Positions 11,722 to 50,672 of a DNA stretch of 64,000 nt are shown here, piece by piece. Source of the DNA: Bacterioplanoides sp. SCSIO 12839 (GTDB taxonomy: Bacteria; Pseudomonadota; Gammaproteobacteria; Pseudomonadales; Oceanobacteraceae); assembly GCF_024397975.1 (NCBI RefSeq), contig NZ_CP073745.1, forward strand, positions 2,506,501 through 2,570,500. The letters are read 5' to 3'. The position numbers and the translations under genes were made by a program. The number at the start of each line of letters is the position of its first letter. The first letter of the stretch is position 1. The notes under the pieces were generated by a model that saw only the letters and a program-made list of their open reading frames with translations, had not been told where the DNA came from and ran no database searches.

Positions 11722-11742
11722 AATCAATTCGATTAAAGCGTT

Positions 11743-11851
11743 AAATAAATACAGTGTTGTTTTTGAGAGCAGCGACAGGATGTCGCGTCCGCGCGGCAGG
11801 GCCATGGATGGCCCTTCGGCGCGGCGGCAAAAAATAACACTGTGTTTATTT
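11743..11851 (+). repeat. Structured inverted-repeat element, copy A
   Basis: A 109-base hairpin element filling the thiG-thiDE gap. The outer arms 11743-11764 and 11830-11851 pair over 22 positions, with two G-U pairs if read as plus-strand RNA. Inside is a 66-base G+C-rich core (11768-11833) with two hairpins: GCGACA-GGA-TGTCGC (11772-11786), and a larger one closed by CGCGCC-type arms with the tip GGGCCATGGATGGCCC. The same core, 62 of 66 bases identical and in opposite orientation, occurs at 50423-50488 inside an unrelated outer stem. No coding capacity is credible. Confidence 0.85.
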
Positions 11852-11877
11852 TTCGCTGCATAATTCTAAAAAAATTA

Positions 11878-16143: not shown

Positions 16144-16196
16144 GCAAGTCTTGATGACATCAACAGCTTCAGAAAAATAAACTGCAAACGGCTTTT

Positions 16197-16287
16197 CTGT
16201 TTCCTACGCTGGCTCTAACCAGATCAGGTTCAACGGGATCCGCTTATGCGATCTCAGCTCCTCATTGCAGATGGAGCACCCCGACAG
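16197..16287 (-). ncRNA. TPP riboswitch (THI element)
   Basis: Read on the minus strand the leader contains GTCGGGGTGCTC, then CTGAGATCGCATAAGCGGAT, CCGTTGAACCTGATCTGG and TTAGAGCCAGCGTAGGAAAC, the near-invariant segments of the thiamine-pyrophosphate aptamer in the right order. It controls thiC and the genes behind it. The rest of the 351-base space between thiC and the DUF2147 gene holds only the leader and the DUF2147 3' flank. Confidence 0.96.
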
Positions 16288-16360
16288 AATCACCACGATA
16301 ATAAGGCGGCTTGCAAACTTATACAAGCCGCGACTTATGTAAAAGAGATAGCCTTAGGTA

Positions 16361-50402: not shown

Positions 50403-50514
50403 GTTAAGAACAATGGAAACTATTTTTGCCGCCGCGCCGAAGGGCCATCCCTGGCCCTGCCGCGCGGTCGCAACATCCTGTTGCTGCTTCAAAATAGTTT
50501 CCATTATTCTGAAC
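50403..50514 (-). repeat. Structured inverted-repeat element, copy B
   Basis: The same 66-base core as at 11768-11833, here at 50423-50488 and in the opposite orientation, enclosed by a different outer stem: arms 50403-50426 and 50491-50514, 24 positions with two mismatched or wobble pairs. The hairpin corresponding to GCGACA-GGA-TGTCGC has become GCAACA-TCC-TGTTGC when read on the plus strand, a compensatory change. It ends 18 bases from the recO start. No coding potential is credible. Confidence 0.85.
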
Positions 50515-50544: not shown

Positions 50545-50672
50545 CTATTGTTAACTGAAAGTTCAGGTGTATTTGCTGAAAGGGTTGATAACAGGACGTT
50601 ATCAGTTAGCGTACAGGGACGTATTTACAGCGCCCTGGAAGCAAATACTCCTGAGTTTTTAGTTAACAATAA
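50545..50672 (+). repeat. Structured inverted-repeat element, type C
   Basis: A 128-base element next to copy B. Its arms 50545-50577 and 50640-50672 pair at 28 of 33 positions, plus three G-U pairs on the plus strand. Inside are TGATAAC-AGGAC-GTTATCA (50586-50604), whose ACAGGACGT tip matches the ACAGGATGT tip of the other two elements, and CAGGG (50614-50618) with CCCTG (50633-50637). Its right arm ends one base before the era stop codon. A perfect 12-base palindrome GTGAATATTCAC lies in the spacer to copy B (50532-50543). Confidence 0.8.

Follow-up and report, generated by a model that had tools for sequence, protein, structure and literature searches.

The 66-base core which occurs twice in the window (the whole stretch of 64,000 nucleotides analysed here) is of a kind already known, since both copies are TwoAYGGAY RNA, Rfam family RF01731, described in Weinberg 2010 (PMC2864571) and little studied. 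The 3.90-Mb genome has 82 sites of this type, which can be treated as natural replicates: they have kept two GGA loops, the pairing of a long outer stem and the length of this stem, while the sequence of the stem has been left free. These kept and free features fix the functional strand and make a CsrA hypothesis directly testable. With some reservation, the reading we favour is that the copies are dispersed RNA modules with two CsrA-binding sites each, probably acting as decoys. If so, the buffering of CsrA activity would not be left to a few sRNA genes only, and dozens of loci scattered over the genome would take part in it.

We will start with the copies in the window. The core in positions 11768–11833 is the reverse complement of 50423–50488 with exactly four differences. 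The initial annotation had given the same two copies and the same number of differences; it did not mention the opposite strand of the second copy. Two of the four differences compensate each other in one pair of hairpin 1, where CGA/TCG becomes CAA/TTG. The Rfam model (positions 1–168, cut-off 43 bits) gives 48.7 bits for copy 1 and 44.0 bits for copy 2. When the strand with the GGA loops is folded, both copies form a long outer stem enclosing two hairpins, with z values of −8.9 and −8.8; none of 200 shuffles is as good.

In copy 1, on the plus strand, folding places the 5′ arm of the outer stem in 11737–11764; its sequence is private to the locus, except for an inner TTTTT which is family-wide. 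The conserved core follows in 11769–11828 (85.9 bits with model R1, described below), and the 3′ arm in 11830–11857, as found by folding and by pairing of the arms. The fold shows two hairpins in the core, in 11772–11786 with loop ACAGGATGT and in 11799–11814 with loop CATGGATG, each of them a predicted CsrA-type site. Copy 2 is on the minus strand, with its 5′ arm in 50491–50514, its core in 50428–50487 (83.8 bits with R1) and its 3′ arm in 50403–50426. Its arms of 24 nt are detected by folding and by an inverted-repeat finder with gapless seeds, which finds none in copy 1. Long stems of 22 and 24 positions had been annotated around the two cores; the one in copy 1 measures 28 positions by folding and arm pairing, 24 Watson-Crick and two G-U pairs being among them. 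Compared by eye, the arms of copy 1 and copy 2 are unrelated outside the inner TTTT/AAAA closure, in agreement with the initial annotation.

Copy 1 has a thiD/thiE-like fusion gene on one side and thiG on the other, and is antisense to both. Its 5′ arm is identical in a sister genome over positions 11743–11764; at this thiG-side site the stem is identical in both genomes, with a changed core and different flanks. Copy 2 is found between era-like and recO-like genes (order rnc-era-recO-pdxJ), in sense orientation to both. The T run of an intrinsic terminator is absent at copies 1 and 2. A third copy, on the plus strand in 50546–50671, was detected by structural search and has a fold z of −8.2. 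It is a diverged element with a short core: the two GGA hairpins are in 50583–50624 (fold) and the private arms of the long stem in 50546–50584 and 50633–50671 (inverted-repeat finder and fold). Neither the Rfam scan of the window nor R1 gives a match here; the core has diverged and the architecture is that of the standard copies.

In the whole genome the Rfam model has 38 matches at E ≤ 1, with 16 above the cut-off. Model R1 is specific for this genome, as it was built from 25 of its aligned cores. It gives 95 matches at E ≤ 1, from which 82 distinct sites with E < 0.01 were kept; the other 13 are opposite-strand overlaps and matches with E > 0.01, and two of these, 1330550 and 3831878, are possibly weak sites in their own right. 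A search with a structural model and a comparison with Rfam had been suggested in the initial annotation, which named as unfavourable outcomes a lack of further copies or an outer stem shared by all. Neither appears in this genome: the search leads to RF01731 and to 82 sites with unrelated stems. An independent sequence pattern, CAGGAYG-N15-45-CANGGAYG, is present in 70 places (none for the reversed control), and 61 of them fall on R1 sites. Some of the other nine are diverged elements, as those in 584231, 793144, 943111 and 1628480 fold to a similar architecture. The sister genome has 38 R1 matches at E ≤ 0.1, of which we have used 33 and dropped five.

RF01731 is also found at E ≤ 0.01 in 16 of 34 relatives, with 1 to at least 57 matches per genome among the best candidates scored (up to 58 in each). 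In a sample of the class, scored on up to the nine best candidates per genome, a match at E ≤ 0.001 is present in at least 17 of the 273 other genomes. There is no RF01731 match in 14 control genomes, nor any match of the strict core pattern in viral contigs.

The structure of the core is well conserved. Its alignment, for which 70 of 74 loci of the genome were supplied, reduces 82 matches to 79 distinct rows, including two cut-off rows and one opposite-strand row (in the pairing count, out of the GGA count). Paired cells reach 97.8%, against 76.5% when shuffled, and in 13 of the 15 core pairs there are changes on both sides, which is co-variation. Each core has two hairpins with loops of the form CA(N)GGAYG. 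Loop 2 is A(T/G/A)GGA(T/C), of the AYGGAY type; loop 1 is AGGA(T/C), one base shorter, so that it fits this type only loosely. Loop 2 has GGA in every one of the 77 rows with letters, and in loop 1 each of the three bases is present in 74–77 of 77 rows. As the model behind the alignment already had GGA loops, these counts are biased towards GGA. A structural search of the window with GGA loops recovers exactly the three copies, and the same search with seven other loop triplets gives none with an outer stem. In 2.0 Mb of the sister genome this search gives three elements with GGA and one with the control triplets.

Both full motifs are kept in 70 of the 82 sites, and in 10 of the 33 copies of the sister genome, where 15 have one motif and eight have none. 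It looks as if the family were decaying in the sister and maintained in our genome. Elsewhere one of the two loops often lacks GGA: CACGACG or CACGATG is read instead in four of seven folded copies of genome G059 and in three of nine of G303, both from other lineages.

Outside the core what is conserved is pairing, not sequence. We compared the two arms of each site with 600 mismatched pairs of arms: 75 of the 82 sites pair above the 99th percentile and 43 above the maximum. The length of the outer stem is 22–26 positions in 56 of these 75 sites. Their imperfect pairs, read on the GGA strand, are 95 G-U against 8 A-C (p 5e-20). In this count G-T and A-C are scored alike, and the nine innermost pairs are left out, as they form the family-wide closure TTTTTCA/TGAAAAA. 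Stems with a score below 9 are also left out (7 of 82 sites here, 5 of 33 in the sister genome), a choice which selects for good stems and is neutral between G-U and A-C. The sister genome has 43 G-U against 5 A-C. On the complementary strand this imbalance would be inverted; the strand on which pairing has been kept is therefore the GGA strand, and a twelvefold excess of G-U indicates that pairing has been kept as RNA. Single-stranded DNA as the paired form is not strictly contradicted by this bias; a G-T pair in DNA is less favourable and less tolerated than G-U in RNA. The excess is found in copies which are sense to both neighbouring genes (34 against 4; 19 against 1 in the sister) and in those antisense to both (40 against 2 in 31 copies; 10 against 4 in the sister).

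Nine sites shared by the two genomes allow a direct comparison of 216 stem positions: 162 are unchanged and 25 no longer pair when the register is held fixed; pairing has survived in the others, with a change on both sides in 14 and on one side in 15. Several of these shared sites have homologous arms, with part of the changes compensated. The excess of G-U and these compensated pairs bear out an early proposal, namely that selection acts on the stem rather than on its sequence.

Arms and cores have different histories. The similarity of arms over all pairs of copies (mean 13.7, maximum 24) is close to that of column-shuffled arms (13.3–13.5, maximum 21). For the cores we could compare 43 of the 75 sites, those with a length of 60 nt: among 903 pairs there are eight with no difference or only one, when 0.19 are expected from column shuffles. 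The arms of these near-identical pairs match in 17.0 of 41 positions, and those of the other classes in 15.6–16.3. Between copies 244839 and 2420050 the core does not differ at all. In the five best conserved pairs of sister sites the situation is opposite, as the cores differ in 4–9 positions and the arms keep 30–39 of 41; five other sister pairs, chosen by synteny of the flanks and presumed orthologous, keep 16–25 of 41. Drift alone was considered as the origin of private arms and rejected, as near-identical cores have unrelated arms and sister sites keep theirs. We also rejected arms copied from a donor elsewhere, from a search with one perfect pair of arms: a piece of 20 nt is found only at its own locus when up to three mismatches are allowed.

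Both flanks of 32 sites could be mapped on 2.0 Mb of the sister genome: 12 of the intervals are occupied, two contain remnants and 18 have no element. In two occupied intervals (584091 and 1628649) the sister element is elsewhere in the interval. In four others the core is at about the same place in opposite orientation; by eye the arms look homologous in 2035130, 2971071 and 2420050 (with an indel), and their homology is not clear in 1099482. A known effect of template switching in inverted repeats is that the arms become alike and the spacer between them is inverted; the spacers described have only a few bases (PMC8604942). Such switching is the likeliest cause of the inverted cores, and it would also randomise their orientation. 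Ordinary gene conversion could give identical cores but not inverted ones, and may be combined with template switching.

All 82 sites are intergenic. According to a simple ORF caller, 31 are sense to both neighbours, 31 antisense to both, 12 lie between convergent genes and eight between divergent genes. No replication-strand bias is apparent (41 against 41, relative to an origin and a terminus that are guesses based on the GC skew of partial data). In 75 sites the best promoter score has a mean of 5.29 upstream and 5.23 in the mirrored position (5.34 and 5.89 in other controls), and runs of five T are found in seven sites against 10 mirrored. The absence of promoter and T-run enrichment, together with 31 of 82 sites antisense to both neighbours, means that many copies may lack transcription of the GGA strand. 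It also favours modules carried on other transcripts over autonomous sRNA genes.

The link with CsrA is found in the loops. The published consensus for CsrA is RUACARGGAUGU, the repeat of CsrB is CAGGA(U/A/C)G and an ANGGAN hexaloop is also described (PMC7652899). The loops of the TwoAYGGAY core agree with all three. A connection with CsrA has been put forward before for this family, by authors whom we take to be Gardner and Eldai. Two matches to the CsrA motif in TwoAYGGAY are given in that article, where a CsrA-sequestering role is proposed as a prediction (PMC4333381). From the motifs, each element likely has two predicted CsrA sites. The initial annotation knew of no established function: this holds for experiments, as none on the family appears in the literature covered, but the family has a name in Rfam and a published CsrA prediction.

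Our genome has one csrA gene. It also has a CsrB-like RNA in 3499445–3499804, with an E value of 2.4e-7 which is under the Rfam cut-off; the same model matches five of 14 control genomes at E ≤ 1, one of them above the cut-off. It has 22 GGA in 360 nt and its loops include GACAGGATGT, ACATGGATG and CCATGGATG; the first two are identical to loops of the TwoAYGGAY copies. No match to RsmZ is found in the genome. A terminator-like hairpin in the CsrB-like RNA has a loop, ACAGGACGT, which is itself a CsrA motif.

On these grounds we suggest how the module could work. An RNA of about 110 nt would offer CsrA (RsmA) two adjacent hairpins with GGA loops, held together and capped by an outer stem of about 24 bp. 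CsrA would bind the copies, which would act as scattered decoys on read-through or pervasive transcripts. The long stem may protect the module or allow its excision; a stem of this length suits RNase III. Its sequence would be free because only pairing matters, and its pairs would change through G-U intermediates. Cores would be exchanged or inverted between stems, possibly by template switching, and the arms would stay in place. More tentatively, the 80–90 modules may form a genome-wide buffer of CsrA, the core being a cassette which is duplicated, exchanged and flipped among private paired sockets; these would stay in place, each drifting freely in sequence with selection on its pairing only. 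Several points count against this reading: decoys are not needed when a conventional CsrB-like RNA is present, and binding of CsrA may be weaker to very stable hairpins, as indicated in a review. The loss of one GGA in other lineages, the few sister copies with both full motifs, the weaker G-U bias in the sister copies antisense to both neighbours, the 25 broken stem pairs, the bias of the GGA counts and the lack of promoter enrichment also weigh against it. The origin of the two arms at a new locus is unexplained by the decoy model, and how a repeat spreads without ends of its own is the puzzle which this family poses.

It is useful to compare these elements with known systems. Like TwoAYGGAY in Rfam, they have a pair of hairpins with GGA loops on one shared stem; they differ by their 82 sites in one genome and by outer stems with only the inner closure in common. 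In three other genomes (20 stretches) the copies of the same genome appear by eye to be alike in the outer stem too. Private stems and dozens of copies per genome are not mentioned in the titles and main-text passages covered from the open literature on TwoAYGGAY and CsrA repeats. The sRNAs of the CsrB/RsmZ type have the same loop motif (CAGGAYG or ANGGAY); they carry many sites, whereas here there are two per module in dozens of dispersed copies, and an own promoter and terminator are not found. A T run after the stem, as in an intrinsic terminator with its GC-rich stem, is not enriched either. In ERIC, NEMIS and REP/BIME the stem sequences are family-wide. These are dispersed intergenic stem-loop repeats as well (PMC2267715), but our elements differ from them by an outer stem private to each locus and by the absence of RAYT in the genome: the Y1 transposase domain PF01797 has no match, while five of the 14 control genomes have one.

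The main rival of the decoy reading is a mobile single-strand DNA element, a non-autonomous hairpin similar to a MITE or a REPIN; its single-stranded DNA would be recognised by a transposase, and the GGA loops would be a feature for the enzyme, not CsrA sites. We consider it possible but rather unlikely. It agrees with the intergenic position and random orientation of the copies, with the excess of near-identical cores, with the shared flanks in other genera and with the loss of GGA in some lineages. Neighbouring R1 sites less than 400 bp apart also fit, as they have opposite orientation in nine of nine pairs, five in our genome and four in the sister; direct pairs have perhaps been lost through deletion. 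The same can be said of G003, a genome of another genus, where among the matches listed several contigs have copies of one orientation (plus for C27, C28 and C39; minus for C37 and C40), and C26, C32 and C51 have a mixture. On the other hand, the resident transposase of REP/REPIN-RAYT systems is absent in a search limited to Y1/RAYT, and there is no common terminal sequence as in a conventional MITE or inverted-repeat element, the arms being at background similarity and not accompanying the cores. The twelvefold excess of G-U is what RNA pairing predicts, the loops equal those of the resident CsrB-like RNA, and the even distribution on both replication strands does not favour mobile DNA either. 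No order of orientations along contigs as in G003 is seen in our genome.

A less probable origin is an insertion which copies about 16–25 nt of the target in inverted form beside the core, the resulting stem being kept later by selection on RNA. It would give near-identical cores with unrelated arms, and an arm of which a 20-nt stretch is unique in the genome when up to three mismatches are allowed. In 985644 one arm has a partial match in the unoccupied sister site, which fits such an inverted target duplication or equally a deletion in the sister. Against it, neither arm is found by eye in the sister at 2826464, and in 3079624 only a few outer bases are found.

It is very improbable that the cores were inserted into older palindromes, as had also been proposed at first, for instance into terminators: the long private stems and the three loci with opposite cores in homologous-looking arms would be expected from independent insertions, but unoccupied sister sites without a comparable palindrome speak against it. 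The 18 sites without a sister element correspond to 16 intervals, including two that overlap. The best Watson-Crick stem in these has a score of 5.0–12.0; for the elements of our genome the range is 5.0–25.0, and 14 of the 16 have at least 11.5, a comparison limited by intergenic divergence. Four of the empty intervals reach 10 or more: three have short terminator-like hairpins (span 24–32) and one a span of 70 nt. By eye these hairpins adjoin the element in our genome and do not enclose it. The stem length is also fairly uniform, and T runs are not enriched.

A small subfamily has a short core, with 15 nt between the two motifs, which is the lower limit of the search pattern, so that closer motifs would be missed. 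It includes the third copy of the window (50546–50671, plus strand) and elements in 584231, 1628480 and 3001592. Three of these four have a standard copy at a distance of about 200 bp or less, and long outer stems are seen in the folds of the window copy, 584231 and 1628480. The element in 1628480 has the same orientation as its neighbour in 1628649. The window also contains a TPP riboswitch on the minus strand, in positions 16184–16293 (78.4 bits).
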